Source of the DNA: Bacteroidia bacterium
Lineage (GTDB): Bacteria; Bacteroidota; Bacteroidia; 2-12-FULL-35-15
Length of the DNA: 64,000 nt
Direction of reading: 5' to 3'
Assembly (NCBI GenBank): GCA_020051175.1
Contig: JAGVJJ010000089.1
Coordinates: forward strand, 1 to 64,000
Under the pieces are notes generated by a model. The model did no database searches, was not told where the DNA came from, and saw only the letters and a list, made by a program, of their open reading frames with translations. Of the stretch, positions 8,279-23,479 are shown one piece after another (position 1 is the stretch's first letter; every line of letters begins with the position of its first letter). The position numbers were made by a program, and so were the translations under genes.

Positions 8279-8578
8279 ACCGCAAGCTGAATAGTACCAG
8301 CGGTCTATATTCCACACTTTGAATCAGTTATGCCTTGTTACTTTGTAACAATTGGCCGAATCCTGCGTAAGAAATTAAGTTAAACCTGGGGTATTTTTCT
8401 TATGAAGGTAAAATCTCCTTTTTGGGATAGGTTTTAATCAAATAACCCCTTTATTATGAGAATTTTAGCTTCGTCATCAGAATTGTTAAATAAAATGGGA
8501 TTATTACATTTTAATTTGCATCTTTGTATTTACCTATAGTGTATTTTAGGGTAAATGGGTGGGATTTTAAATTTAAAT
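8279..8578. other. 300-bp intergenic region, no gene seen
   Basis: The region is AT-rich and separates mgtE from the T9SS/SprF locus. CATCTTTG at about 8518-8525 resembles a -7 box with one mismatch (CA for TA) and could drive the downstream gene, but I see no matching -33. No hairpin with a T-tract is visible after mgtE. Confidence 0.4.
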
Positions 8579-9838
8579 ATGAAAAAATTAGCCGGTATCA
8601 TAGCGCTTTTAATTTTTCAGCTTTTCCTTGTTGGAAGAGGTGAAAGATTGTGTGCGCAGGTGTTGGTAAACAATGGCGGACTTATTTTCAGCACAAACGA
8701 TACTATTTACACCAATGGCGGGGTTTCCAATGAAGCAAACGGTACATTCAGCAATAGCGGCCAGCTGTATATAAACAGCAGTGGTTCTGATCCGGGCTAT
8801 TGGTCCAATATTGCGGGCAATGCAGGTTTTACCAATTCTGCAGGTGTTCAGGGTGCAAGCACTATTACCTGTTATCTTATCGGAGGCAACCAGAATATCG
8901 AGGGTAACGCAACAACGGAATTTCATAACCTCCGTCTGCGTGGTTCCGGCATTAAACAACTCAATGGTGTCGATGCAATTGTTCACGATACATTGGATTT
9001 GAGCACTTTTGAGCTGGCTACAGGTACTAACAGGCTATACGTTACCAATACAGATCCCAATGCCATTGAAAATGTTCATTCACAGGGTTTTGTGAGCAGC
9101 CTTGCAGGCGGTTTCCTTGCTCGCAACACTGCTCAGGCCAGCAGGTATGTGTTTCCGGTTGGCTCCAGCATTGGCCAGTTCAGGTACCGCCCCGTTGAGG
9201 TAGCCCCTGTTAACAGTGCATCTAACCAGTATGCTGTTCGTTTTTTTAACGATATGGCCGATAATGATGTCCCGGCTTATCCTGTTGCCCAGCGCCAGGC
9301 CACAATGAGTCGTGTAAACGAATATTATTATCACAATATAACAAGAGAGCAGGGAGCTAGTCCGGCCGACATTACAATCTATTACGATGCTGCAAGTGAT
9401 GGCCCTACAACGGGCATTGCGCACTGGCAAAATGCTCCTCAGTGGGAAGACATCGTTTCCAGCCCGGATGCGCCTAATTACGGTTATTCGTCTTATACCC
9501 GCCAGGCCTGGGACTTTTCAAATACATCACCTGCTTTTGCCCTCATGAAGCTTATCAACGAGTGTGGTGAAATGTTTGTCCCTACAGCCTTTTCGCCTGA
9601 TGGAAACGGGGAGAACGACATGGAGTGTGTATACGGCAAGTGTGTGGAGGAGCTTTATTTTGCCATCTACGACCGCTGGGGCGAAAAAGTATTTGAAACA
9701 ACAGATATGACGCAGTGCTGGGATGGTACGTACCGCGGCAGGCAAATGAATACAGCTGTTTTTGTTTTTTACATGAAAGCTAACCTTACCGATGGAACGG
9801 AAGTGGTTAAAAAAGGAAACATTAGCTTAATAAGATAA
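8579..9838 (+). CDS. Secreted protein with T9SS type B sorting domain (SprF partner)
   Basis: A 419-aa protein starting at the ATG at 8579, which gives the signal peptide MKKLAGIIALLIFQLFLVG...CAQ; an earlier ATG at 8555 would add eight residues. The middle (about 30-330) is rich in beta-strand and Asn/Thr/Gly sequence with no enzyme motif. The C-terminus begins VPTAFSPDGNGEND, contains IYDRWGEKVFET and ends KKGNISLIR, a type B gliding-motility-associated sorting domain. The stop is 8 bp before a PorP/SprF gene. T9SS type B substrates such as SprB are commonly paired with a dedicated SprF-family protein needed for their secretion, so these two probably work as a unit. The biochemical role is unknown. 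Confidence 0.85.
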   Translation: MKKLAGIIALLIFQLFLVGRGERLCAQVLVNNGGLIFSTNDTIYTNGGVSNEANGTFSNSGQLYINSSGSDPGYWSNIAGNAGFTNSAGVQGASTITCYLIGGNQNIEGNATTEFHNLRLRGSGIKQLNGVDAIVHDTLDLSTFELATGTNRLYVTNTDPNAIENVHSQGFVSSLAGGFLARNTAQASRYVFPVGSSIGQFRYRPVEVAPVNSASNQYAVRFFNDMADNDVPAYPVAQRQATMSRVNEYYYHNITREQGASPADITIYYDAASDGPTTGIAHWQNAPQWEDIVSSPDAPNYGYSSYTRQAWDFSNTSPAFALMKLINECGEMFVPTAFSPDGNGENDMECVYGKCVEELYFAIYDRWGEKVFETTDMTQCWDGTYRGRQMNTAVFVFYMKANLTDGTEVVKKGNISLIR

Positions 9839-9846
9839 TTGGCAGG

Positions 9847-10908
9847 ATGAAGAAGATAGTAGCCATAATTATAATCCTCTGTTTGAATGCACTCTTTTTG
9901 CAAAGGGAGGGTGGCGCTGTTTTAGCACAGGACATCCACTTTTCTCAGTTTTACATGGCCCCCCTTACCCTGAACCCGGGATATGCAGGTGCATTGTATG
10001 GCATGGAGGCCAATGCAAACTATAAGGAACAGTGGAGAAGTGTAGGATCACCCTACAAAACAATTGCGGCATCATACAGCCTTAGCCTTCAGAAGAAAAA
10101 GAGGGCAAAAGGTTATTTTGCTTTGGGTGTTAACTTTTTCAGCGATAAAGCAGGTGATTCAAAAATGGGAACATCGCAGGCAAATGTTACTGCTGCCGGC
10201 CACGTATACATCAACAGGTATATGAAGTTTGGCGGTGGTTTGCAGATTGGCTTTGCACAGCGCAGCATTGATTATACACCTTTAACCTGGGGCAACCAGT
10301 TTGACGGCATGGCTTACAATCCAAACCTTAGTTCCCGCGAAAACCTTCCTGAAGCATCATCTACCATGTATCCTGATGTTTCTGCCGGTATTGTTTATAG
10401 CTATAACAATACTGCCGGAATGAGGCGTGTTACGGATAACAATGACTTCAGGGTAAACCTGGGGCTTGCTGTTTTTCATGCTTCCCGCCCTAGTTATTCA
10501 TTTATTGGGACTGAAGAGAAACTATTTGCCAAATTTGTATTGCATGGCAACTCCCTGTTAAGCATCCCGTACAGCAATATTGGCTTTGTGCCTGGTTTTG
10601 CCGTTTACAACCAGGGTCCTGCTGTTGAGGTGTTTGCGGGAACTATGGTGCGTTACGTGTTTGCCCAGAAAAGTAAGTATACCGGTAACAGAACAACGAA
10701 TGCGCTTTCCCTTGGTGGCTACCTCAGGGCAAAGGATGCTGCTGTAATTGCCTTTATGCTGGAGTATTCAAAATATTCCATCGGCATGAGCTATGATGTG
10801 AATGTTTCACGGTTAAAAGTTGCGAGTGTAGGCAGGGGAGGATTTGAGCTGTCGTTAAGGTTTAATGCGGCAAATCCGTTTATGGTCAATTCAAGATCCC
10901 GTTTTTAG
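9847..10908 (+). CDS. PorP/SprF family type IX secretion membrane protein
   Basis: A 353-aa protein with a signal peptide (MKKIVAIIIILCLNALFLQ...LAQ) and the family opening motif DIHFSQFYMAPLTLNPGYAG. The rest is an amphipathic beta-barrel-like sequence with many aromatic girdle residues. PorP/SprF proteins sit in the outer membrane and support secretion or surface attachment of T9SS type B substrates. It lies 8 bp after a type B substrate and upstream of PD40/OmpA-like proteins, an arrangement typical of SprF-linked surface loci. The exact partner is inferred from adjacency. Confidence 0.92.
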   Translation: MKKIVAIIIILCLNALFLQREGGAVLAQDIHFSQFYMAPLTLNPGYAGALYGMEANANYKEQWRSVGSPYKTIAASYSLSLQKKKRAKGYFALGVNFFSDKAGDSKMGTSQANVTAAGHVYINRYMKFGGGLQIGFAQRSIDYTPLTWGNQFDGMAYNPNLSSRENLPEASSTMYPDVSAGIVYSYNNTAGMRRVTDNNDFRVNLGLAVFHASRPSYSFIGTEEKLFAKFVLHGNSLLSIPYSNIGFVPGFAVYNQGPAVEVFAGTMVRYVFAQKSKYTGNRTTNALSLGGYLRAKDAAVIAFMLEYSKYSIGMSYDVNVSRLKVASVGRGGFELSLRFNAANPFMVNSRSRF

Positions 10909-10989
10909 TGATAATTATTGTTTATCGAAAATAATGCTAACCAACTTTTTTAACTCAAAAGAACAAGTATAAAATACCAACAAGATATT

Positions 10990-12180
10990 ATGAAAACAGG
11001 ACTCACCACTTTTTTGTGCGCATTTTCTTTCTTAGTGTGTGCACAACAAAAGGACTCCGTGAAGGTGGAAATAAAAAATCTGGGAACACAGGTAAACTCT
11101 CCTTTCGCAGATTATGCTCCACTTATTTCTGCAGACGGCACCGTAATGGTGTTTACTTCCCGCAGGCCAGTAATTGAAAAAGACATCACGAAAGAAAAAG
11201 AGGGCAAGGAAAATGTCTACATCACCTATTACGATGACAAGAACTCCCGCTGGCTGGTAACCTTTATGCTGGGGCCAACCATAAATACAGAAGAAATCGA
11301 TAACTCGGCCATTGCACTTTCTAACGATGGGCAGCGTATGTTCCTGTACCGTGGCGGAAATGAACAGAATGCAAATGGTGATATCCTGGAATCGGTACTT
11401 GTTGGTGACGAGTGGTCGGACCCGATGCGTTTGCCGGAACCTATCAACAGTGATGAGAATGAAACATCTGCAAGTATATCGCCAGATGGCAGAACAATTT
11501 ATTTTATCAGCGATCGCAAGTGGGGTTATGGCGGACGCGACATCTGGTATTGTACACAGGATGAAAATGGGGTGTGGGGAGAAGCCATCAATGCAGGCAG
11601 AAATGTAAACAGCACGCTGGACGAAGAGGGAGTATTCATTCATCCGAATGGTAAAGTGCTTTTCTTCAGTTCAAAAGGGCATTCATCAAAAGGCGGATAT
11701 GATATTTTTATGTCGGTTTTTGATGAAACCACACAAACCTGGGCACAGGCCGAAAATATTGGAGCTCCTATAAATACGGATGGAGATGAGATTTATTTTG
11801 TGATGGGTGCAAATGGTAGAACAGGTTATTATGCTTCTTCCCGTCCCGGTGGAACAGGCGACCTTGATATTTACAGCATCAATTTCCTGGAAGATATTAT
11901 GAAAAAGAATGTAACGCTGCTTTCCGGCCGCATTCTTGATAAAAATGAAAAGCCTGTTGGTTCAACCATTGTGTTGACTGAGAAAGGCACGGGAAAATAC
12001 ATCGGCTCATTCAAATCGAATAAAGCTACGGGTAAGTTCCTTGTATCCCTGCCTCCCGGAAAAAAATACGAATTCGATATTACAGCGGATGGCTATAAAG
12101 CCAATACCATTTCTGTGGATATCCCTTTTAAAGCGGGATATTCAGAAATGCAGTCGGATATTGTGATTGAAAAAAATTAA
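10990..12180 (+). CDS. PD40 beta-propeller protein with C-terminal regulatory-like domain
   Basis: A 396-aa exported protein (signal peptide MKTGLTTFLCAFSFLVCAQ). Residues about 25-300 form PD40/WD40-like propeller blades, with repeats such as ISADGTVMVFTSRRP, SPDGRTIYFISDR and HPNGKVLFFSSKGH. Residues about 305-396 are a carboxypeptidase-regulatory-like (CRD) fold (LSGRILDKNEKPVGSTIVLT, KYEFDITADGY). The propeller closely resembles the two propellers inside the giant protein encoded next. The architecture is related to the T9SS protein PorE (propeller, CRD, OmpA) but lacks the OmpA domain. It probably acts in the periplasm or at the outer membrane as part of the same assembly. Not an enzyme as far as can be seen. 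Confidence 0.85.
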   Translation: MKTGLTTFLCAFSFLVCAQQKDSVKVEIKNLGTQVNSPFADYAPLISADGTVMVFTSRRPVIEKDITKEKEGKENVYITYYDDKNSRWLVTFMLGPTINTEEIDNSAIALSNDGQRMFLYRGGNEQNANGDILESVLVGDEWSDPMRLPEPINSDENETSASISPDGRTIYFISDRKWGYGGRDIWYCTQDENGVWGEAINAGRNVNSTLDEEGVFIHPNGKVLFFSSKGHSSKGGYDIFMSVFDETTQTWAQAENIGAPINTDGDEIYFVMGANGRTGYYASSRPGGTGDLDIYSINFLEDIMKKNVTLLSGRILDKNEKPVGSTIVLTEKGTGKYIGSFKSNKATGKFLVSLPPGKKYEFDITADGYKANTISVDIPFKAGYSEMQSDIVIEKN

Positions 12181-12291
12181 TTTTTATAGCATAACTACTA
12201 TCCGTTTGGCAAAAGACATATCATATCAAAACAATAAATCAAAAGAACGAAGTATTGGCTATTCGGCCTTACGCTTGTGCAGTATCTCATC

Positions 12292-15200
12292 ATGAAAATT
12301 CTTGTTTCTGCCCTGCTTTGTCTTTGTTCTCTTGTAATTTTTGCTCAGCAGGATACTCCCTCAGGTGAGAACATTAAAAAAAACGGTTTTCTTTCCAGCC
12401 TTGTGGTGGATGAAGCCGGAATGCCACTCATTGTTCAGATCGATATTACCGATAATGTTACCAATGAAATAGTTCAACAATTCCAAAGCAGCAGGATTGG
12501 TTATTCCCGTATCTCCCTGCCATCCGGTAATTACAACATTGTATTCAGTAAACAAGGCTACCTGTTCCATTCCGAAAATTTTGTCATCCTGGATACAGCC
12601 GGATACGAAAAGAAGCTTAAAAAAGTAGTCCTGAAAAAAGTTGAGGTAGGCAACAATACCGTATTGAAAAATATTGCATTTGAAGACAACCAGTCAGTCC
12701 TGAAAGAAGCTTCGTTCAAAGATTTGCAACGGGTTCTGGAGCTGATGAATGAAATTGTGACCATTCAGATCGAAATATCCGGTGACATTGGAAAAGATGA
12801 ACAGGTAAAAACAAACAAGGAACTTGCCGAGCAAAGAGGAAAAGTGCTGATTGATTACCTTGTGAGCAAAGGTGTTGACAGGAACCGTTTGAAGTATACC
12901 AATAATGTAGAGCAGCCCATAGAGCTTGTAGATTCTGAGGAACCAGAAACAGACGACAGTAAAGTTCAGGTGAAGATTGTGGACATTGGGCCTCAAAAGC
13001 TGGTGCAAACGGAAGGCCAGTACTATGCTGTACCTGCAGAACCTGTTAAAAAGAAAAAAGGTAAGAAAAATAAAACAGATCAAACTACTGAAGAAGCTCT
13101 TAAAGCAGCAGCAGCTACAAGTGCTGGCAAAGCAGCGGAGCCGGAACCCGGGAAAGAAACTACACCTGACAATACAGCTGCAGCTGTAGAAAAAAAGGAA
13201 GAAAAAGTACCGGAAGAACCGGGTGCTGAAGTTTCCGGAGATATTGTAAAAAAAGAAGAGCCTCCTGTAACCGAACCTAAAGAAACTGCTGAAACGGAAA
13301 CAAAAGAACCGGTGAAAACTGAAGCTGCTGAGCCTTCTGAAGATAATAGCGGTATAGTTACATCTGAAAAAAAAGAGGAACCGGTTCCTGCTGAAGAAAC
13401 CGTGCCCGTGAAAACAGAAGCAGTGAATGAGGAGAAGGAAAGTACTGATATTGTTGCTGTTGATAAAAAGGACGATGCTTCTGAAGCTCAGGAAACGAGG
13501 AAAGAAGAGCAGAAAACTGAAGAGGTGGCTGCCGCACCACCTGCCGAAACTGAACCTGCTAAAGCGGAAGAGGCTGTGGTTGCTGTAACGGAGAAAAAAG
13601 CAGAAGCGCCTGCAGGGCAGGAACAAAAAGAAACCGGACAGGTTGATGTTGCAGGCAAATCAGTTACTGAAGGGGAACTTGGAGAAAAAAAGGAGGCAGA
13701 GCCCGCTTCTAAAGCAGAAGAAAACGTTGCTATCAAAGAGGAAGAGAAAACCATTGCAGAAACGCCCGTAGCAGAAACTGCGGCTGCCGGAGTGGTAGAG
13801 CAAAAGGACGAGCAAAGCCTTGTTAAGCCAGTAAACAATGCAGAAACAAATGGCGGGGAAAACCCTGAAAATAAATCGGGTGAAACGGCAGAGGCTTCTG
13901 ATGTTGAACCGGACAATACCAAAAAGGGCGCTACTCTTGCAGTAAGGGATACGGTTAAGAAAGAGTCCGTAAAAGAAAAGAATGTGCTTGCCGGGATTCC
14001 TGTGGATACCACCGTTTATGATCTGGAAGGGGTACGCGCAGATATTGGGTTTCTTGGGGAATCGATCAATTCTGCATTTCCGGATTATGCACCACTTATT
14101 AGTGCAGATGGAAATACAATGGTGTTTACTTCCCGCAGACCACTGAATAAGAAGGACGTTCAGAAAGGGAGGGTAGGTAAGGAAAATATCTATATTTCCC
14201 ATTATGACAACAGAGGAAAGGTTTGGTCACCAGCCGAAATGATGGATGCTACCATCAATATTCCTGAATCTGATAATACAGCTACTGCTATTTCTGCTGA
14301 TGGACAGCGCATCCTGATTTATCGTGCCAAGGATGATAAAAACCCAAGTGGTGATATTTATGAATCTGTTCTTAATGGTGATGTTTGGGCTGAGCCGGTA
14401 AAGCTGTCTGCACCGATTAATAGCAATGCGGAAGAAACATTTGCAGCAATATCTGCTGACGGGCAAACCCTTTATTTTGTAAGCGACAGAAAAGGCGGAT
14501 TGGGTGGTAAGGATATCTGGTCCTGTACCAAAGATAAATCCGGTAAGTGGGGAGAGGCCATTAATCTTGGGCCTACGGTAAACAGTAGCAAGGATGAGGA
14601 AACTGTATTCATGCATCCGAACGGCAGCACTATGTTTTTCAGTTCAAGGGGGCATCAGTCACCGGGCGGTGCGGATATATTTATGGCCACATTTGATGAA
14701 TCTACGGGAAGATGGGGCAGGATAACAAACATGGGTAACAGTGTGAACACGGAAGGGGATGATCTGTACTTTGTAATGGCGGCCAACTCTAAAACGGCTT
14801 ATAACGTATCGTACGAGCAGAATGGTTCGGGGAATAACGATATTTTCTGCCTGAACTTTGTAGACACTATTGTTCCTCAAAGCACAGTATTGCTGAAAGG
14901 TACTGTTATTGATGAAAATGGAAGGGTTATAAAATCTAAAATAACGTTTGCAGATCAGAACAATGATAAACCATTGGGACTGTTCTCATCGAACAGGGCT
15001 ACGGGAAAATATGTTGTGCCGCTGCCAGCCGGAAAAAATTACAATGTAAAATTTTCTGCAAAAGGTTACACCTCATTTGTGGAACCTCTTGAAACAAAAG
15101 GCCTGCCGTATGCAGAATTTTCCAAAATTATCCTGCTTGAATCCAGAAATACCTACCTGACTGGCAAAGCTGTTGATGTAAATGGGGCCCCGTTGAGTGT

Positions 15201-18200
15201 GCTGGTGGAAGCCATTGATAAATCAAACAAACAATGGATTGAAAAAACAATGAATGATGAGGAGGGGAACTGGCGCATTGCTGTACCTGCAGGCAAAAAT
15301 TATGGTATAGTGCTGAGCAAGCCCGGTTATTTCTTTTACACAATAAACACCACAATGCCGAATGCCATAGGTTATGAACGCGACTTTAAGACCATTACGC
15401 TCACAAAAATTGAATCGGGGAAAAAGGTGGTTCTGAACAATGTTGCTTTTGAACCCGGTAAGGCAGCGCTGAAACAAGAGATTTTTTCAGACCTTGATCT
15501 GGTTGTGAAGCTAATGACCGAGATGCCTACACTTCAGATAGAGATATCTGACAATGCTAATAATCTTGCTGCAAGCAAACCTTTTCAGCAACTTTCCAAA
15601 GACCGTGCAAAAGCTATGTCTGATTATCTTGTAAGTCGTGGTTGTGATATCAAGCGTATTAAGTATGCCAGCTATGATACAAAAGAACCTGTTGCCAGTA
15701 CCGGGAAAAAAGGCGAGTTTGCAAGCCGTGCGGAGTTAAAGGTGCTGAAGCTGGATGAAAAGGCAGAACAACAAACTGCTGAAAGCAGGATAAAGGAAAT
15801 TACTGAAGAAATAAAACGCATAAATGAAGCCAATGCTTTTGGTGAAGATATGGCTGATTCTTTGAATGGCGAGGGTGAAGATTCTGAGTTTGCAGATGGT
15901 ACGGAGGAGGCGGTAGATACTGCAGTGGTATCAGAATATGGAGATTCAACTATGGTGGATAGCATGGCTGTGGATTCTGTTTCAGAAGAGTTTGCCGGGG
16001 AGGTGGTGGATTCAACCGCCCTTATGGCAAGCGATTCTATTCAGATGACAATAAGGAACATGGGTTCGCTCATAAATTCCCCTTTTGCAGATTATGCACC
16101 TTTGGTTTCTGCTGATGGTACAAAATTGTTTTTTACATCCAACAGGCCTTTATATGCAGTAACGCCTTCAGCACCGCCCAAAGGCAAAATAAAAACACCT
16201 GAATACAAGAGTAGTATTTATACGTCAGACTACGAAGAAAACCAGGAGCACTGGCTGATGGCGGTGCCCCTGAAACAGGGTGTGAACCTGGAAAATGAAA
16301 ACAATACGGCTATTGCTGTGTCCAATGACAGCAAGCGTTTGCTCATGTACCGCTCTACGGATAGAGCAAATACACCTGGCGATATTATGGAAACAACAAG
16401 CCCTAATGTAGATTGGGCAATGCCAATGGTAGTGCTTTCATCTTTAAACAGTCCGGCCTTGGAAACCGCTGCCAGCTATTCACCGGATGGACGCACCATT
16501 TATTTTGTGAGCGACAGGCAGGGAGGGGCAGGAATGAAAGATATATGGTATTGTACGCAGAATGAAAAAGGGGTATGGGGCGATGCTGTAAATATCGGTG
16601 AACCGGTGAATACAGATAAAGATGAAGAGAGTGTGTTTATACACCCGAATGGTAATACTCTTTTCTTTAGTTCCAAAGGCCACAATACAACAGGCGGATA
16701 CGATATTTATATGACGGAACACAATGATTCAAGCGATACCTGGGAGCAGCCCCGCAACCTGGGAAGCTTTATAAACACCCCTGAAGACGACTTGTATTTT
16801 GTGCTGGCTGCAGATGGGAAAACAGGCTATTATTCGGCCATACGGCCAGATGGGTTAGGTAAGGAAGATATTTACCAGGTGCTGATGGAACAGAGCATAT
16901 TAAAAAAGAATACAACGATTTTAAAAGGTGTTGTGATGGACGAAGCCGGACAGGTGTTGAGGGCAAAAATCACTGTAAAAGATAAAGCAACCGGAAAGGT
17001 TATTGGCACTTATACATCTACAGCCAGCAATGGAAAATATGCGATTTCATTACCTGAAGGCAAAAACTATGAAATAAAAGTGCTTGCTCCGGACCATACA
17101 GCTTATGTGCGTACTATTGATCTTACGGACAAAAAGCGGTACGATGAATTAAAGAAGAATATTGTGCTGGAAACCAGAAATGCATTCCTGACCAGTAAAG
17201 TATACAATGAAGCCGGACAGCCAATAAGTAAAGTTCAGATAGAGGTGATTGATAAAACTGCCAAGCAGCTGATTGACAGAGCTGAGAGCGATAGCGAAGG
17301 ATATTCACGCATTGCTATCCCATCCAATAAAACAATCGATGTAATCTACAGAAAACCCGGGTACCTGTTCCAGTCGGTGAGTGTTGTGCTTCCAAAGTTT
17401 GAACCAAACAAGGAGTATGAGAAGGACTTAAAAACCATTACCCTTCAAAAGATGGAAGTGGGTAAAAAGACAGTGCTTTCCAATATCTCTTATGATTTCA
17501 ACCAAACCACGCTCAGTCCTGAATCGTTCCTGGATTTGTCAAGGGTGGTGACCATGATGAACAATATGCCAAGCTTGCAGGTAGAGGTGTCTGATCATAC
17601 GGACAATACTGCCGAATCAAAGGAGATGCAGAAACTGAGCAAGGATAGGGCAAAAGCTGTTGCTGACCGCTTGATTAGCATGGGCGCTGATAAGAAAAGG
17701 ATAAAATATAAGAGTTATGGCGCTTTGCAGCCCATTGCCCCAAATGGCTCTGAACAGGGCCGTGCAATGAACAGAAGGGTGGAGCTCAAAATTCTGAAAA
17801 TTGATGCAGCAACTGAAATTGCTGCCGAAGAAAAACGCTGGAGAGAGGAGCAGCCTTTAATGGAAGAAACGGAAAGTAATAATCCTTTCATTAATGAATC
17901 CATGGTGGAGAAAAAAGATTCAACAACTTCTGCTGCTACCAAAGAAGAAGTTAAGGAAGAGCCTGTTCAGAATAAAAAGGATGAGTCAGAAACGGGTGTA
18001 ATGCCAGGCTTGGATGGTGTTGTAACAGAGGAGCCTGCACCTGCTAAGAAAGAAACAGAAGTGGTAAACGAGCCGGAGGATACCAAATCCGTTACAAAGG
18101 AAGAACGTGTTCAGAATAAAAAGGATGAGCCTGAAACGGGTGTAATGCCAGGGCTGGACGGTGTTGTAACAGAGGAACCTGCCCCCGCTAATAAAGAAAC

Positions 18201-19026
18201 AGAGGTGGTAAGCGAACCTGAGGAGAGCAAATCCGTTACAAAGGAAGAACCTGTTCAGAATAAAAAGGACGAGCAAGAGGTAGGTGTAATGCCAGGTTTG
18301 GATGGGATTGTTACAGAGGAGCCCGCTCCTGCTAAAAAAGAAACAGAGGTGGTAGACGAACCGGAAGAAACCAAAGCGGTAAGCAAAGAGGAACCGGTTC
18401 AGAACAAAAAAGAAGAGCCTGAAGTGGGTGTAATGCCAGGTTTGGATGGTGTTGTAACAGAGGAGCCTGCACCTGCCAAGAAAGAAACAGAAGTGGTAAG
18501 CGAACCGGAAGAAACCAAAGCAGTAACCAAGGAGGAACCGGTTCAGAACAAAAAAGAAGAGCCTGAAGTGGGTGTAATGCCAGGTTTGGATGGTGTTGTA
18601 ACAGAGGAGCCTGCACCTGCTAAGAAAGAAACAGAAGTGGTAAGCGAACCGGAAGAAACCAAAGCAGTAACTAAGGAGGAACCAGTTCAGAACAAAAAAG
18701 AAGAGCCTGAGGTGGGTGTAATGCCAGGTTTGGATGGTGTTGTACAGGACGAACCGGTTCAGAACAAAAAGGAGGAGCCGGAAGTGGGTGTAATGCCAGG
18801 TCTGGATGGAGTTGTAAGCGATGAGCCGGGTACGAAAAATGAAGAAAAGAAAGGGACAGTGACCAAGTCGTCCTTACCGGATCGTTTTGTGAAGTTTGAC
18901 AGTGATCGGGATGGAACTCTTTCTGCAAACGAAATTTATGGTGCAATAGATGCCTTTTTTGATGATAATTCAACGATAGTTGCAGATGATATCAATGCAA
19001 TGATTGATTATTTTTTTGATAATTAA
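12292..19026 (+). CDS. Giant multi-domain envelope protein: CRD, OmpA-like, PD40 propellers, repeat linker, EF-hand tail
   Basis: A 2244-aa protein; the ATG at 12292 gives the signal peptide MKILVSALLCLCSLVIFAQ. Approximate order: CRD (20-115); OmpA-like 1 (122-231); low-complexity E/K/P/A linker (243-565); PD40 propeller (580-857); two CRDs (862-1040); OmpA-like 2 (1042-1155); acidic linker (1160-1245); PD40 propeller (1250-1530); two CRDs (1535-1720); OmpA-like 3 (1723-1840); tandem 48-residue repeats (1889-2176); and a C-terminal EF-hand with a perfect loop DSDRDGTLSANE followed by a helical tail ending DYFFDN. Only OmpA-like 3 keeps both the HTD aspartate and the LSKDRA arginine used for peptidoglycan binding. 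It looks like a periplasm-spanning scaffold made by triplicating a PorE-like block. Function is inferred from domains only. Confidence 0.85.
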   Translation: MKILVSALLCLCSLVIFAQQDTPSGENIKKNGFLSSLVVDEAGMPLIVQIDITDNVTNEIVQQFQSSRIGYSRISLPSGNYNIVFSKQGYLFHSENFVILDTAGYEKKLKKVVLKKVEVGNNTVLKNIAFEDNQSVLKEASFKDLQRVLELMNEIVTIQIEISGDIGKDEQVKTNKELAEQRGKVLIDYLVSKGVDRNRLKYTNNVEQPIELVDSEEPETDDSKVQVKIVDIGPQKLVQTEGQYYAVPAEPVKKKKGKKNKTDQTTEEALKAAAATSAGKAAEPEPGKETTPDNTAAAVEKKEEKVPEEPGAEVSGDIVKKEEPPVTEPKETAETETKEPVKTEAAEPSEDNSGIVTSEKKEEPVPAEETVPVKTEAVNEEKESTDIVAVDKKDDASEAQETRKEEQKTEEVAAAPPAETEPAKAEEAVVAVTEKKAEAPAGQEQKETGQVDVAGKSVTEGELGEKKEAEPASKAEENVAIKEEEKTIAETPVAETAAAGVVEQKDEQSLVKPVNNAETNGGENPENKSGETAEASDVEPDNTKKGATLAVRDTVKKESVKEKNVLAGIPVDTTVYDLEGVRADIGFLGESINSAFPDYAPLISADGNTMVFTSRRPLNKKDVQKGRVGKENIYISHYDNRGKVWSPAEMMDATINIPESDNTATAISADGQRILIYRAKDDKNPSGDIYESVLNGDVWAEPVKLSAPINSNAEETFAAISADGQTLYFVSDRKGGLGGKDIWSCTKDKSGKWGEAINLGPTVNSSKDEETVFMHPNGSTMFFSSRGHQSPGGADIFMATFDESTGRWGRITNMGNSVNTEGDDLYFVMAANSKTAYNVSYEQNGSGNNDIFCLNFVDTIVPQSTVLLKGTVIDENGRVIKSKITFADQNNDKPLGLFSSNRATGKYVVPLPAGKNYNVKFSAKGYTSFVEPLETKGLPYAEFSKIILLESRNTYLTGKAVDVNGAPLSVLVEAIDKSNKQWIEKTMNDEEGNWRIAVPAGKNYGIVLSKPGYFFYTINTTMPNAIGYERDFKTITLTKIESGKKVVLNNVAFEPGKAALKQEIFSDLDLVVKLMTEMPTLQIEISDNANNLAASKPFQQLSKDRAKAMSDYLVSRGCDIKRIKYASYDTKEPVASTGKKGEFASRAELKVLKLDEKAEQQTAESRIKEITEEIKRINEANAFGEDMADSLNGEGEDSEFADGTEEAVDTAVVSEYGDSTMVDSMAVDSVSEEFAGEVVDSTALMASDSIQMTIRNMGSLINSPFADYAPLVSADGTKLFFTSNRPLYAVTPSAPPKGKIKTPEYKSSIYTSDYEENQEHWLMAVPLKQGVNLENENNTAIAVSNDSKRLLMYRSTDRANTPGDIMETTSPNVDWAMPMVVLSSLNSPALETAASYSPDGRTIYFVSDRQGGAGMKDIWYCTQNEKGVWGDAVNIGEPVNTDKDEESVFIHPNGNTLFFSSKGHNTTGGYDIYMTEHNDSSDTWEQPRNLGSFINTPEDDLYFVLAADGKTGYYSAIRPDGLGKEDIYQVLMEQSILKKNTTILKGVVMDEAGQVLRAKITVKDKATGKVIGTYTSTASNGKYAISLPEGKNYEIKVLAPDHTAYVRTIDLTDKKRYDELKKNIVLETRNAFLTSKVYNEAGQPISKVQIEVIDKTAKQLIDRAESDSEGYSRIAIPSNKTIDVIYRKPGYLFQSVSVVLPKFEPNKEYEKDLKTITLQKMEVGKKTVLSNISYDFNQTTLSPESFLDLSRVVTMMNNMPSLQVEVSDHTDNTAESKEMQKLSKDRAKAVADRLISMGADKKRIKYKSYGALQPIAPNGSEQGRAMNRRVELKILKIDAATEIAAEEKRWREEQPLMEETESNNPFINESMVEKKDSTTSAATKEEVKEEPVQNKKDESETGVMPGLDGVVTEEPAPAKKETEVVNEPEDTKSVTKEERVQNKKDEPETGVMPGLDGVVTEEPAPANKETEVVSEPEESKSVTKEEPVQNKKDEQEVGVMPGLDGIVTEEPAPAKKETEVVDEPEETKAVSKEEPVQNKKEEPEVGVMPGLDGVVTEEPAPAKKETEVVSEPEETKAVTKEEPVQNKKEEPEVGVMPGLDGVVTEEPAPAKKETEVVSEPEETKAVTKEEPVQNKKEEPEVGVMPGLDGVVQDEPVQNKKEEPEVGVMPGLDGVVSDEPGTKNEEKKGTVTKSSLPDRFVKFDSDRDGTLSANEIYGAIDAFFDDNSTIVADDINAMIDYFFDN
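13021..13990 (+). repeat. Low-complexity E/K/P/A linker coding region
   Basis: About 320 residues dominated by Glu, Lys, Pro, Ala, Thr and Val with no fixed repeat period, joining OmpA-like domain 1 to the first propeller. It is probably extended and disordered. Long open frames on the other strand here are side-products of the biased codons. Confidence 0.75.
17956..18819 (+). repeat. 144-bp tandem repeats (48 aa) in the giant protein
   Basis: Five full 144-bp units run from 17956 to 18675, followed by two 72-bp half units (18676-18747 and 18748-18819). Each full unit encodes (E)EPVQNKKxExExGVMPGL, then DGVVTEEPAPAKKETEVV and SEPEETKAVTK. Units 4 (18388-18531) and 5 (18532-18675) encode the same peptide and differ at two synonymous positions, which indicates recent duplication. 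The half units contain only the VQNKK...MPGLDGVV half. Confidence 0.95.
18898..18933 (+). other. EF-hand calcium-binding loop in the giant protein
   Basis: Encodes the 12-residue loop D-S-D-R-D-G-T-L-S-A-N-E, with acidic ligands at positions 1, 3, 5 and 12 and Gly at 6, matching a canonical EF-hand. It is followed by the helical tail EIYGAIDAFFDD...DYFFDN. Confidence 0.85.
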
Positions 19027-19147
19027 TCAGTAACCAGCATTATTATTGTCAGCTATTTTTTTTAAAAGTTATGGAATTGAGTGCCATAATGCATTAATAG
19101 TATAACAGCAGATTTACTTATATAGAAGCAAAATTTATTGCATAGAG

Positions 19148-21097
19148 ATGAAAACCTTTTTTATCAGTCTTTTTTGTATTTTCTCAATGTTTGCCTTTGC
19201 TCAGGACGAGGGGAAAAGTATTGTGCCTGTTTACGTTAAGACCTTAACTAAAGGCAAAAAATCACTCAAAGTCACTATTGAGGTAGTAGATGCCGAAACC
19301 AAAAAGATGATTAAGACCATTGAAAGCAGTGGGAAAAATACGCGTGTGCTTTTGGAACAGGGCAGGGATTATATTCTGGTATTCAGCAAACCCGGGTTTC
19401 TTTTTCAATCTGTAAGTGTTGCATTGTCAGATTCTGCAGTGGTTAAGGAAAAAAAACTGAAAAGTATCCTGATGGAGAAAGTGGAGGTGAATAAAAAAAC
19501 GGTGCTGAACAACCTTTCTTTTGATGTATATCAGAAAATATCTGAATATGAATCGCAGACAGACCTGCTGTATATCATGAAGCTTTTGGAAACAATGCCA
19601 AAGCTTCAGCTGGAATTCGGAGGTTATACCTGTAATTCCGGATCTATGGATTTAAGCCTGAAGGTGTCTGAAGAAAAAGCAAAAACTCTTGTAGATTATT
19701 TTGTAAGCAAAGGTGCGAATGCAGGAAGGCTTCAATATAAAGGTTATGGCTCTTTTCAGCCCATTGCAAGCAATCATTCGCAAGAAGGAAGGATATTGAA
19801 TAACAGGATAGAAATGAAGGTTATAGGCAATGATTTTAAATCAGAAACACCAGAGCAACTGCAAAAGATAGAGCCTGATACAAACAACCGTGTGCAAAGC
19901 ACTGTTAAAACTGCTTGTGCCACAGGGCCAGGAAACAATTCAGCTGCCTCAACGAATCTATCATCTGACGCTAATACTGTGGCTCAAATCAATTCATCAT
20001 CCGAAACCTTATACATGCCAGGTATTAATTCAAATACAGAGGCTGCTACAGAACCTGAAAGTAGTACCATGGCTGGTGTGAATTCAGCTGGAGAAAGTAC
20101 CGAAATCAGCACTGTAACCGGAATAAATTCAAACACAGAAACAAATTCAACCACGGAAACAAACCCGGCCACTTCAACCGAAACAATGCCCGGGATTAAT
20201 CCTGCCGCTGAATCCAATACAACGCCTGAAACTTCAACAATGCCGGGGATTGATCCGGTTGCCGAATCCAATACAACGTCTGAAACTTCAACAATGCCGG
20301 GAATTGATCCGGTTGCTGAATCCAATACAACGCCTGAAACTTCAACAATGCCGGGGATTGACCCGGTTGCCGGCTCCAATACGCCTGAAACTTCAACAAT
20401 GCCGGGAATTGACCCGGTTGCCGGATCCAATACAACGCCTGAAACTTCAACAATGCCGGGAATTGATCCGGTTGCAGAATCCAATACAACGCCTGAAACT
20501 TCAACAATGCCAGGAATTGATCCGGTTGTTGAATCCAATACAACTGCAGAAACCACAACAACGCCTGGAAGTAATTCCACCACAGAATCAAATTCAACAA
20601 CCGAAACATCTTCAATGCCGGGTATTTATCCGACAGCGGGAAGTACAACAACGGAAACGAATCCGGTAGCAGGGGCCAATACAGCAACCGGTAATTCGCC
20701 CGGAACAGATTCGGTAAAAGCAGAACCACAGGTAACAAAAGCAGCAGCAGCTAAGGAACCTATACCAAACGCCTCCTTAACAAAGGATTATAAGGGAATG
20801 TTTATTGCAGACAAAAAGCCATTTGCAAATGCTACTGTTAACTTATTGACGGAGAAAGGAAAAGTATACAAAACCACAAAAACAGATAAAAATGGACGTT
20901 TTAGTTTTGTTGGAATCCCCGCAGATAAAAAACTGACAGTTGGCCTGAATGAAAAAGAAACAAAAAAGTATAAAAAAGTGAAATTGCTGGATAGCGCAAG
21001 TGAAATTTATGGGGCAATAGATGGTTATTTTGAAGATAATTCTACCATAATTGCTGATGATATCAATGCAATGATAGATTATTTCTTTGATAACTAA
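19148..21097 (+). CDS. OmpA-like/CRD protein with 18-residue tandem repeats and truncated EF-hand tail
   Basis: A 649-aa protein with signal peptide MKTFFISLFCIFSMFAFAQ. Order: CRD (about 22-115); OmpA-like domain (about 118-235); Ser/Thr/Asn-rich linker with six 18-residue repeats (about 361-467) centred on TSTMPGIDPVAESNTTPE; a short CRD-like segment (about 545-612) nearly matching the third paralogue; then a tail ending DYFFDN. The OmpA domain carries GGYTCN and SEEKA where functional domains have HTDN and SEERA, so both peptidoglycan-binding residues are replaced. The tail starts in the middle of the EF-hand motif, and the Asp-rich loop is missing. Probably a diverged partner or decoy of its two neighbours; function unknown. 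Confidence 0.85.
   Translation: MKTFFISLFCIFSMFAFAQDEGKSIVPVYVKTLTKGKKSLKVTIEVVDAETKKMIKTIESSGKNTRVLLEQGRDYILVFSKPGFLFQSVSVALSDSAVVKEKKLKSILMEKVEVNKKTVLNNLSFDVYQKISEYESQTDLLYIMKLLETMPKLQLEFGGYTCNSGSMDLSLKVSEEKAKTLVDYFVSKGANAGRLQYKGYGSFQPIASNHSQEGRILNNRIEMKVIGNDFKSETPEQLQKIEPDTNNRVQSTVKTACATGPGNNSAASTNLSSDANTVAQINSSSETLYMPGINSNTEAATEPESSTMAGVNSAGESTEISTVTGINSNTETNSTTETNPATSTETMPGINPAAESNTTPETSTMPGIDPVAESNTTSETSTMPGIDPVAESNTTPETSTMPGIDPVAGSNTPETSTMPGIDPVAGSNTTPETSTMPGIDPVAESNTTPETSTMPGIDPVVESNTTAETTTTPGSNSTTESNSTTETSSMPGIYPTAGSTTTETNPVAGANTATGNSPGTDSVKAEPQVTKAAAAKEPIPNASLTKDYKGMFIADKKPFANATVNLLTEKGKVYKTTKTDKNGRFSFVGIPADKKLTVGLNEKETKKYKKVKLLDSASEIYGAIDGYFEDNSTIIADDINAMIDYFFDN
20228..20548 (+). 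repeat. 54-bp tandem repeats (18 aa)
   Basis: Six near-identical units begin at 20228, 20282, 20336, 20387, 20441 and 20495. All are 54 bp except the third-to-fourth step, which is 51 bp from loss of one Thr codon. Each encodes ETSTMPGIDPVAESNTTP or a close variant; more diverged units flank the array on both sides. Confidence 0.95.
20999..21094 (+). other. Truncated EF-hand tail shared with the giant protein
   Basis: Encodes SEIYGAIDGYFEDNST and onward to DYFFDN. Over the last 96 bp including the stop, it differs from the giant gene's 3' end at only 12 bases, but the preceding Asp-rich calcium loop is absent. The residues just before it (KVKLLDSA) align instead with an internal CRD of the third paralogue (SVQLADTA). 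Confidence 0.85.
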
Positions 21098-21379
21098 AGC
21101 TTCTTTGCCTGTTTAAGGATAAAAGAATCGCTTGTTTTTATGGGTAATAATTGTTTAATTTGTAAAGTTTGGCTGTGCGGCAATTGAAAGAATATCAAGT
21201 TATTACTGTAAGCCGGACGGTAAGGTTAACCTGATTTGCTGTTTTTACTGTTTCCAATAGTTTTTTAGTACGGAATTTATGGAATTTGAGGTAGATGAGC
21301 ATCATTTTAACAGGAAAGTGCTCTATTTGAAAAGACGGGAGTGCGCAGGGTTTGGTTTTAAATATTGACTGTGTTACTG
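21098..21379. other. 282-bp intergenic region, nothing recognised
   Basis: No gene, strong hairpin or clear TAnnTTTG promoter is visible between the second and third OmpA-like paralogues. An alternative TTG start at 21365 lies just before the chosen ATG. Confidence 0.4.
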
Positions 21380-23479
21380 ATGAGAGTTTTTTTTATTACT
21401 TTTTTTTGTGCTTTCTCCTTGTATCTATTTGCCCAGGATGGAGGAAAAAAAAGTGTCCTTGTTACTGTCAAAACCCTTGACGAAAGTAATGACCCCCTAA
21501 AAGTTAGTGTAGAAGTGGTTGACAACGAGACCAAAGAAGTTGTTACCTCACTGGAAAGTGCCAGTGGCGGTGATACAAAAATCAAGCTGGCAGCCTCAAA
21601 GAATTATACCATTTTTTTTAGCAAAACCGGGTATTTATTTCAGTCGGTAGTAGTGAAGCTGCAGGATTCGGTAGCCAGGGACAAGAAGTTGAAAGAGGTG
21701 GTGATGCAAAAAGTGACAATTGGTAAAAAAGTAATTCTCAGAAGTACTTCTTTTGATGATTATCAGAAGGTGCTGATTGAAGAATCGATGCCGGATGTTG
21801 ATCGCATTATTAAACTCCTTGAAGACACGCCTCAATTGCAGATAGAGCTCGGAGGGTATACCGATAACTTCGGCTCGGTAAACCTTACCACAAAGGTTTC
21901 TGAAGAAAGAGCCAAAGCGCTTATGGATTTGCTAGTAGAAAAGGGTGTAGATGAGGGGCGCCTGCAATACAAAGGCTATGGACCGATACAGCCAATAGCC
22001 AACAATTTAACTGAAGAGGGCAGGGTGGCCAATAACCGCATTGAACTTAAGGTAATAGGCCTTGACTATGTCCCGTTGTCGCCTGCTGAACTGAAGAAAA
22101 AGAGGGCCAACGCAAAAAAGACAGAAAACAATACAGAGAACCCGGAGGAAAACCCGGTTGACGATACCCCAAAAGATACCATTAAAACCGATGCGGTTCC
22201 TATGGCAATTGTTCCCACTGAGCCAGTAAGCGACAGTCTTTTGAAAATTGATTATAAGGGTATGTTCATTGCGGATAAAAAGCCAATGGCAAATTCAACA
22301 GTAAACTTATTGACTGACCAGGGGCAGGTTTTTCAAACTACAAAAACAGATGAAAACGGTAGTTTCCAGTTTATTGGAGTGCCTGCAGAAAAGGAGCTGA
22401 GGCTTGGGCTTGATGAAAAGGAGTCGAAGAAGTTCAAATCAGTTCAGCTTGCCGATACTGCCGGTGTTGTTGTGGAAGATTTGGTAAAAGTAGACGGGAA
22501 ATTTGAGCACAGGATTTTACCTAGTGAAAAAGTAAAGCTGGGCCAGGTATATGTGGTTGACCCGGAATTGAAAATCAGGAAACCGAAACCTAAAAATTCA
22601 AACCAGATGGCAATTGTTACGGGACGTGTGCTGGATGACCGTGGCAATCCTATCAAAGCCGATGTGGAAGCTGTTGACTTATCAAGTGGGACTACGGTTC
22701 AGAAGGTAACCAGCACCAGCACAGGTGAGTTTGCTATAAGCATTGCTGCTGGTAAAAATTACGACATAGCTGTAAGTAAACCAGGATATTCGTTCCAGAC
22801 CGTTAATGCAATTATTCCGGAGGTAGCAGGTTATGAGAAAAAAGTGGGCGATGTATCCCTTCAAAAGGTTGAAACAGGTAAAAAAATCATCCTTAACAAT
22901 ATCTTTTTTGATGTTAACCAGTCCACATTGCGCAAAGAATCTTATGGTGAGCTTGGAAGGGTGCTGAAGCTGATGAATGATATCAGTTCACTGCGAATCG
23001 AGATATCTGGTCACACGGACAATATAGGTTCTGTTAAGAGCAATAAAACCCTTTCCGAGCAGAGGGCAAAGGCTGTGAAAGATTATCTTATTGCAAACGG
23101 GGCCAATAAGGACAGGCTAACCTCCAAAGGCTATGGTTCCACCCAGCCTGTTGCCAATAATGCAACCGAGGGAGGCAGGCAGCTGAACCGCAGGACTGAG
23201 TTTAAGGTGCTGGAAGTAAACCAGGAAGAGGTGAAAAACAAGGAAGAACCAGGTGAAACAGCAGGCAATAAACGCAACACAACAGCAGATGATCCTGAAG
23301 ATACTGCTCCGAAAGAGATGCCCGAGGCCTTTAAACAATATGATATAGATAAAAATGGTTCTATCTCCTATGAAGAGGTAATTGCGGCAATTGATTTGTA
23401 TTTTGAGCAGCACCCTAATGGTAATACTCAGAAAAAAGAAGAGCTCACCAGTCTTTTTGATTATTATTTTGAAAAGTAA
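21380..23479 (+). CDS. OmpA-like/CRD protein with two OmpA domains and intact EF-hand tail
   Basis: A 699-aa protein; the ATG at 21380 gives signal peptide MRVFFITFFCAFSLYLFAQ, better than a TTG five codons earlier. Order: CRD (about 20-112); OmpA-like 1 (about 115-232, GGYTDN and SEERA intact); Lys/Asn-rich linker; short CRD (about 290-370); CRD (about 410-495); OmpA-like 2 (about 497-610, SGHTDN and SEQRA intact); linker; EF-hand (loop DIDKNGSISYEE at 23342-23377) and helical tail ending DYYFEK. Both OmpA domains should bind peptidoglycan by family rules. It is the most intact of the three paralogues and perhaps closest to the ancestral form. Last gene of the SprF-linked locus. Confidence 0.88.
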   Translation: MRVFFITFFCAFSLYLFAQDGGKKSVLVTVKTLDESNDPLKVSVEVVDNETKEVVTSLESASGGDTKIKLAASKNYTIFFSKTGYLFQSVVVKLQDSVARDKKLKEVVMQKVTIGKKVILRSTSFDDYQKVLIEESMPDVDRIIKLLEDTPQLQIELGGYTDNFGSVNLTTKVSEERAKALMDLLVEKGVDEGRLQYKGYGPIQPIANNLTEEGRVANNRIELKVIGLDYVPLSPAELKKKRANAKKTENNTENPEENPVDDTPKDTIKTDAVPMAIVPTEPVSDSLLKIDYKGMFIADKKPMANSTVNLLTDQGQVFQTTKTDENGSFQFIGVPAEKELRLGLDEKESKKFKSVQLADTAGVVVEDLVKVDGKFEHRILPSEKVKLGQVYVVDPELKIRKPKPKNSNQMAIVTGRVLDDRGNPIKADVEAVDLSSGTTVQKVTSTSTGEFAISIAAGKNYDIAVSKPGYSFQTVNAIIPEVAGYEKKVGDVSLQKVETGKKIILNNIFFDVNQSTLRKESYGELGRVLKLMNDISSLRIEISGHTDNIGSVKSNKTLSEQRAKAVKDYLIANGANKDRLTSKGYGSTQPVANNATEGGRQLNRRTEFKVLEVNQEEVKNKEEPGETAGNKRNTTADDPEDTAPKEMPEAFKQYDIDKNGSISYEEVIAAIDLYFEQHPNGNTQKKEELTSLFDYYFEK
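23342..23377 (+). other. EF-hand calcium-binding loop
   Basis: Encodes D-I-D-K-N-G-S-I-S-Y-E-E, a canonical EF-hand loop with ligands at 1, 3, 5 and 12 and Gly at 6. Confidence 0.85.

Follow-up and report, generated by a model that had tools for sequence, protein, structure and literature searches.

Two neighbouring genes in a stretch of 64,000 nucleotides (nt) from a Bacteroidia bacterium (positions 1 to 64,000 of contig JAGVJJ010000089.1, assembly GCA_020051175.1), referred to here as the window, encode proteins with tandem-repeat linkers in which the short motif MPG-(L/I)-D recurs. They are a giant PorE-like protein of 2249 amino acids (aa; 12277-19026, + strand) and a shorter protein of 649 aa, named here gene 4 (19148-21097, + strand). 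The motif is genuinely common to both arrays, and plain chance is an unlikely source of it; it is confined to this lineage and lies in the least conserved part of both proteins. The account that fits best, to which we assign a probability of about 55%, is that the fast-changing spacer arrays of the two neighbours share a lineage-private seed, which they acquired either by local transfer or by parallel origin. On this account MPG[LI]D does not act as a docking motif throughout the family. A binding motif conserved among relatives finds no support, as MPG is missing from the open reading frames (ORFs) with OmpA domains that were examined in them.

The two repeat arrays and their shared register

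The array of the giant is located in its C-terminal linker (17827-18873, + strand) and spans positions 17953-18817 (+ strand) according to the rows of Tandem Repeats Finder (TRF) and pattern matches. MPGLD is present in all seven units, starting at 18001, 18145, 18289, 18433, 18577, 18721 and 18793, which corresponds to five spacings of 48 residues followed by one of 24. TRF reported the region 17953-18744 with a period of 144 and 88% match, and a second, overlapping and weaker row with a period of 72 and 58% match that extends to 18817. In the linker of gene 4 (19859-20779, + strand), the unit readout gave twelve units, in the order MPGIN, MAGVN, VTGIN, MPGIN, six times MPGID, TPGSN and MPGIY. 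Its core (20186-20560, + strand) consists of seven units of 17 or 18 residues, one with MPGIN and six with MPGID, and is flanked by a degenerate upstream edge (20015-20185, + strand; MPGIN, MAGVN, VTGIN) and a degenerate downstream edge (20561-20668, + strand; TPGSN, MPGIY); TRF reported 20182-20570 with a period of 54 and 89% match. The copy numbers of both arrays are those of the assembly, and arrays of this kind may be collapsed when short reads are assembled. MPG[LI][DN] thus occurs in 8/12 units, always as MPGI[DN], and MPGID in 6/12. The motif had been described by the first-pass annotation as present once per unit in both arrays, which is correct for the giant and for the core of gene 4 and fails in the edge units of the latter.

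Both linkers are predicted to be disordered. In the AlphaFold2 models, the predicted local distance difference test (pLDDT) remained below 50 at residues 607-944 of a 997-residue fragment of the giant (six-sequence alignment) and at residues 242-542 of gene 4 (eight-sequence alignment), and no local order was seen at the motifs of either linker in these models, which were built from shallow alignments.

The likeness of the two units is not restricted to the motif. The whole 18-residue unit of gene 4 can be superimposed gap-free on positions -13 to +5 of the 48-residue unit of the giant, in the shared register PV-x6-PE-x3-MPG[LI]D, the pair being PVQNKKEEPEVGVMPGLD over PVAESNTTPETSTMPGID, and the first two units of the giant read [SP]ETGVMPGLD, which is close to the [SP]ET-x-x-MPGI[DN] of gene 4. 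The best ungapped BLOSUM62 match between the units scores 46 over 18 residues, as opposed to 35 for the best window in 16 other family proteins (gene 5, the next gene of the window, and 15 from relatives). A score of 46 was reached by 0/3000 shuffles with both units randomised, by 2/4000 shuffles of the giant unit alone and by 0/400 in a separate run. When the core copies were compared as profiles, the observed score was met by 0/1500 column permutations in each direction, and by 1/1500 in each direction after three edge copies had been added. Taken as protein, the repeats were therefore called unrelated too strongly in the first description, given the ungapped match of 18 residues, while as DNA the description holds. 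Over the 54 nt, 25.8 positions were identical on average, compared with 26.3 expected from the proteins and the codon usage. Local DNA alignment of one linker with the other gave a best score of 18, at a place off the motif, and 122/300 synonymous shuffles reached that score. A recent copying of linker DNA was rejected, as it left no trace in either the identity or the alignment test. An older transfer would be indistinguishable from convergence in such a comparison, because there are few silent sites, which also leaves the transfer test with little power.

Distribution of the motif in this genome, in relatives and in other genomes

A DNA pattern that encodes exactly MPG-[hydrophobic]-[DN] matched 28 times in this genome, with 15 matches inside the two arrays, and the reversed pattern matched once. 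Four of the 13 matches outside the arrays fall in ORFs longer than 200 aa, namely three response-regulator receiver domains and one RNase E/G, and the remaining nine in frames of at most 71 aa; the exact DNA pattern thus revealed no other envelope protein in this genome that carries the motif. Searches for the tandem motif at two spacings, 13-23 and 43-53 residues, returned only this genome: 1/36 genomes of the genus and 1/395 of the class at the shorter spacing, and 1/395 of the class at the longer one.

In the relatives examined, the folded parts of these proteins are conserved and the motif is missing from the linkers, which is the combination that the first-pass annotation had named as speaking against a retained binding motif. 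Among the 59 genomes searched, 6 others contain a full-length match to gene 5, the nearest available copy being 63% identical, and MPG[LIVMF][DN] was missing from the ORFs of at least 200 aa in 20 stretches fetched around gene 5-like loci. MPG itself occurred in 0/47 distinct OmpA-domain ORFs, which amount to 41,220 aa and were taken from 49 loci of relatives; some of these ORFs end prematurely at contig or locus ends. The C-terminal half of the giant is 41-59% identical to the giants of five relatives, yet the linkers before the tail hold other repeats, of about 56 residues in genomes G013 and G022 and of 29 residues in G002, and TRF found no repeat at that linker position in G021 or in the incomplete proteins of G029. 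The length of this linker ranges from 99 to 645 residues across six giants; for one of them, on a broken contig, the value (238) extends only as far as a tail-like copy inside the protein.

When 84,980 species genomes, a collection from which this genome may be absent, were scanned for three motif copies 13-23 residues apart, 58 stretches were obtained. Across 55 of them, 238 motifs were counted, 192 of the type MPGM[DN] and two of the type MPG[LI][DN]. An ORF for OmpA, PD40 or SprF was recognised in 0/58 loci (3-8 kb in length, with profiles that were positive on control loci), which contradicts the expectation that tandem copies would occur mainly in SprF-linked OmpA-like proteins. Pfam assigned ten of the 58 scan proteins as follows: four to copper or efflux families (multicopper oxidases, CopB or CusB-like), two to CotH and one to DUF2231, with nothing found for three. 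The scan also yielded 16-residue repeats of the type FPMPGMDSAGG in rumen Salinivirgaceae and similar genomes (loci L097, L105, L119, L120, L124, L125, L133 and L136), of which L097 and L119 were checked with Pfam and encode CotH-kinase proteins. Clostridial loci (L088, L096, L114, L115 and L134) carry tandem N[TVI]MPGFDD repeats; the two proteins checked, from L088 and L096, gave no Pfam match. A literature search on the motif letters, judged from titles and the openings of abstracts, gave nothing related, and nothing was found on tandem-repeat linkers in OmpA or type IX proteins.

Origin of gene 4 and exchange between neighbouring genes

Gene 4 is composed of a carboxypeptidase-regulatory-like domain (CRD), an OmpA domain, the linker, a second CRD and half of an EF-hand tail, and its assignment as a chimeric duplicate relies on Pfam, on a tree with gene 5 orthologues and on the comparison of the tails. 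Gene 5 (21365-23479, + strand; 704 aa) contains two OmpA stretches, CRDs and an EF-hand tail according to Pfam and its full-length matches, and is the parent-like copy of gene 4. A tree built from eight proteins places gene 4 beside gene 5 of the window and not beside that of the nearest relative (support 91/90, below the strict mark), on a branch of length 0.62 as against 0.22. Long-branch effects may play a part in this placement. The last 31 codons of the giant (18931-19023, + strand) closely resemble the end of gene 4 (21002-21094, + strand), with 81/93 nt identical and a proportion of synonymous differences (pS) of 0.48 on 16.8 synonymous sites. The corresponding values are 0.75-0.76 between gene 4 and gene 5 and 0.80 between gene 5 and its nearest orthologue. 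The 60 nt upstream of the shared tail are unrelated in the two genes. In gene 4 the tail lacks the EF-hand calcium loop, as it retains only the part after the loop, and it is joined to a gene 5-like CRD. Judged by the low synonymous divergence of the tail, the end of the giant has demonstrably been copied into gene 4, that is, DNA has moved between the two genes. By these comparisons gene 4 is a young, fast-evolving duplicate of gene 5 that is chimeric with the tail of the giant. A short CRD-OmpA-EF gene is also located directly upstream of gene 5 in G022, in the position of gene 4 (L061:280-1335); it has one in-frame TGA and is either a decayed gene or affected by a sequencing error.

Repeats also spread between linkers in this protein family: in G002, two linkers of a single giant, with folded domains between them (L065:2-4084), consist of the same 29-residue repeat, at a DNA identity of up to 77.5% over 169 nt. 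In the nearest relative, G013, extra copies of the EF-hand-like tail lie within the linker repeats of the giant (L059:4963-5874 and L060:1-2922), and the repeat array breaks the assembly. The giant of G027 (L066:6261-14879), with 2873 aa, has several segments of about 175 residues (YERHYIYTQ...) inside its linkers, which are 70-77% identical at the DNA level.

We infer from this a sequence of events in which the linkers would be rebuilt by tandem duplication separately in each lineage. A short seed would have passed between the adjacent genes, or a common bias in composition would have produced it twice, and it would then have been amplified independently in each array. The spacer would act through its length, charge and flexibility within a PorP/PorE-like type IX anchor locus, the transfer of the seed, the spacer function and the anchoring role all being deductions of the same kind. 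Descent from a short shared seed, one of two explanations first offered for the motif, is slightly favoured by the match beyond the pentamer, by the private nature of the arrays and by the movement of tail DNA, and finds no trace in the linker DNA itself. Several points weigh against it. The similarity of the linkers at the DNA level is no higher than their proteins imply and transfer is thus not demonstrated; the PV and PE matches are present in the core of gene 4 and missing from its first edge unit, so that the 18-residue register may in part be coincidental; and the absence of amino-acid changes in the motif of the giant, as opposed to four silent ones, would also fit selection for binding. 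The window offers a clear local case of PorE-like periplasmic spacers being remade, in which the domains are conserved, the repeats are swapped by lineage and neighbours exchange pieces.

Alternative explanations for the shared motif

The alternative that survives best, although we consider it unlikely, is a binding motif private to this lineage, in which MPG[LI]D would serve as a sticker for one partner, such as a PD40 propeller or the PorP/SprF barrel, through many weak contacts. It draws on the observation that no other part of either unit is kept as well as the motif and that silent changes build up in its codons. Counted as minimal changes among the array copies, the motif of the giant shows 4 silent and 0 amino-acid changes and the rest of the unit 35 and 13, and the core motif of gene 4 shows 4 and 1 and the rest of its unit 8 and 6. 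These small numbers represent a trend toward constraint on the motif, but the difference from the rest of the unit is not significant (pooled Fisher p 0.43). Windows of five codons without any amino-acid change are found at 11/48 positions of the giant unit and at 1/18 of the gene 4 unit, and in both linkers the protein sequence is overall better kept than the DNA. That two adjacent genes carry the tandem motif, and none elsewhere in the 395 genomes of the class at the spacings searched, also speaks for a common partner; however, the relatives keep the propellers, the OmpA domains and SprF without the motif, and no local order is predicted at the motifs. The wider proposal of a motif retained for a common partner, the other explanation originally given, is not borne out in the relatives examined, whose linkers lack it, nor by the tandem loci elsewhere, in which no OmpA, PD40 or SprF ORF was recognised.

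A shared role in anchoring is doubtful. The OmpA domain of gene 4 has Cys162 in place of an Asp and Lys177 in place of an Arg that are found in the other seven aligned proteins, and the spacing of 15 residues fits Asp576 and Arg591 of PorE, which are described as peptidoglycan contacts. With two putative contact residues changed, gene 4 may no longer bind the cell wall. It is conceivable, if improbable, that in one lineage both anchors acquired matching multivalent sticker arrays (PE-x3-MPG[LI]D-x-V), within disordered linkers that otherwise differ, and through them engage the same surface of the PorP/SprF complex, a short linear motif having thus spread between the genes and replaced older linkers. 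Should the motif bind, it would represent a multivalent motif gained by two genes together and a handle on the contacts made by PorE-like linkers.

Chance is a further, likewise improbable explanation, according to which two low-complexity arrays with similar peptides were amplified independently, the amplification multiplying a single coincidence. The pentamer alone, with four identities and one conservative match, is only mildly surprising, as a similar match was obtained in 70/3000 shuffles; in addition, the copies of an array are not independent of each other, the arrays show no DNA homology, and the pair was chosen after the fact because of its likeness. Some array pairs from different species also score fairly high (the score is reached by 11/400 shuffles for the giant of the window against G002 and by 9/120 against G013). 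Against this stands the full register, which was equalled in 0/3000, 2/4000 and 0/1500 randomisations, so that it is the 18-residue register and not the lone pentamer that stands out from chance expectation. Among the 28 pairs formed by eight array units, with 120 instead of 400 shuffles for the pairs of the longest units, only four gave 0/400, namely the giant with gene 4 and three among G002, G018 and G022.

A metal-binding repeat akin to the MPGM[DN] arrays, rich in Met, that occur in copper proteins is very improbable: that type predominates in the genome scan (192/238 motifs, with 4/10 of the Pfam-checked proteins being multicopper oxidases, CopB or CusB-like), but the fourth residue is L or I here, a unit contains a single Met and lacks His, and no metal gene family was found among the six proteins scanned at the locus. 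The arrays of copper-resistance proteins are likewise short tandem MPGx[DN] peptides, with M at position four and in different proteins. MPGLDG also recalls the signature of receiver domains, which the rest of the unit does not, and the likeness was taken as a coincidence. An O-glycosylation sequon consists of Asp followed by Ser or Thr; this candidate was set aside, as the residue after the Asp of the motif is Gly or Pro in core units.

The locus and its comparison with known systems

The window contains six consecutive genes on the + strand from 8555 to 23479, of which the giant, gene 4 and gene 5 are the last three. The first (8555-9838, + strand) encodes a protein of 427 aa with a type IX secretion system (T9SS) type B sorting domain at residues 342-427 (NCBIfam TIGR04131, above cut-off) and is a putative cargo. 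It is followed by an outer-membrane protein of the PorP/SprF family (9847-10908, + strand), which passes the family cut-offs of both TIGR03519 (152.6 bits, cut-off 90.55) and Pfam PF11751 (110.4 bits, cut-off 22.3; E 1.5e-31). The third gene (10990-12180, + strand) encodes a PD40 propeller (PF07676, above cut-off) and a carboxypeptidase-regulatory-like domain (PF13620, E 1.7e-05, below its cut-off). In the giant, Pfam recognises PD40, a CRD, three OmpA stretches, low-complexity linkers and an EF-hand-like tail, with PD40, CarboxypepD_reg and OmpA all above their cut-offs.

PorE is reported to be bound to PorP and to peptidoglycan (PMC7192894, PMC9143113), and by analogy the locus could function as a cell-wall anchor for surface cargo. 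The giant resembles PorE in having a beta-propeller, a CRD and OmpA_C-like domains in the same order, and in that genes for a PorP/SprF-family protein and for a protein with a type B sorting domain lie nearby, and differs from it in its far greater length, the repeated domain sets, the long linkers and the EF-hand-like tail. PorE is an outer-membrane-anchored lipoprotein with an N-terminal tetratricopeptide repeat (TPR) domain, whereas the giant has no match to a TPR family (Pfam, E 0.001). With the PorE model of NCBIfam, the giant reaches 418.5 bits, under the cut-off of 600, the best stretch beginning at profile position 155 of 648. In Flavobacterium johnsoniae, porP-like genes adjoin porE-like genes (PMC9143113), a neighbourhood similar to the one described here; in contrast, the window has several PorE-like genes in a row and tandem-repeat linkers. 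The best NCBIfam match for the giant, gene 4 and gene 5 is the CHU_0125 family (NF053607), with 507.3, 69.5 and 209.9 bits, respectively, all below the cut-off of 620.

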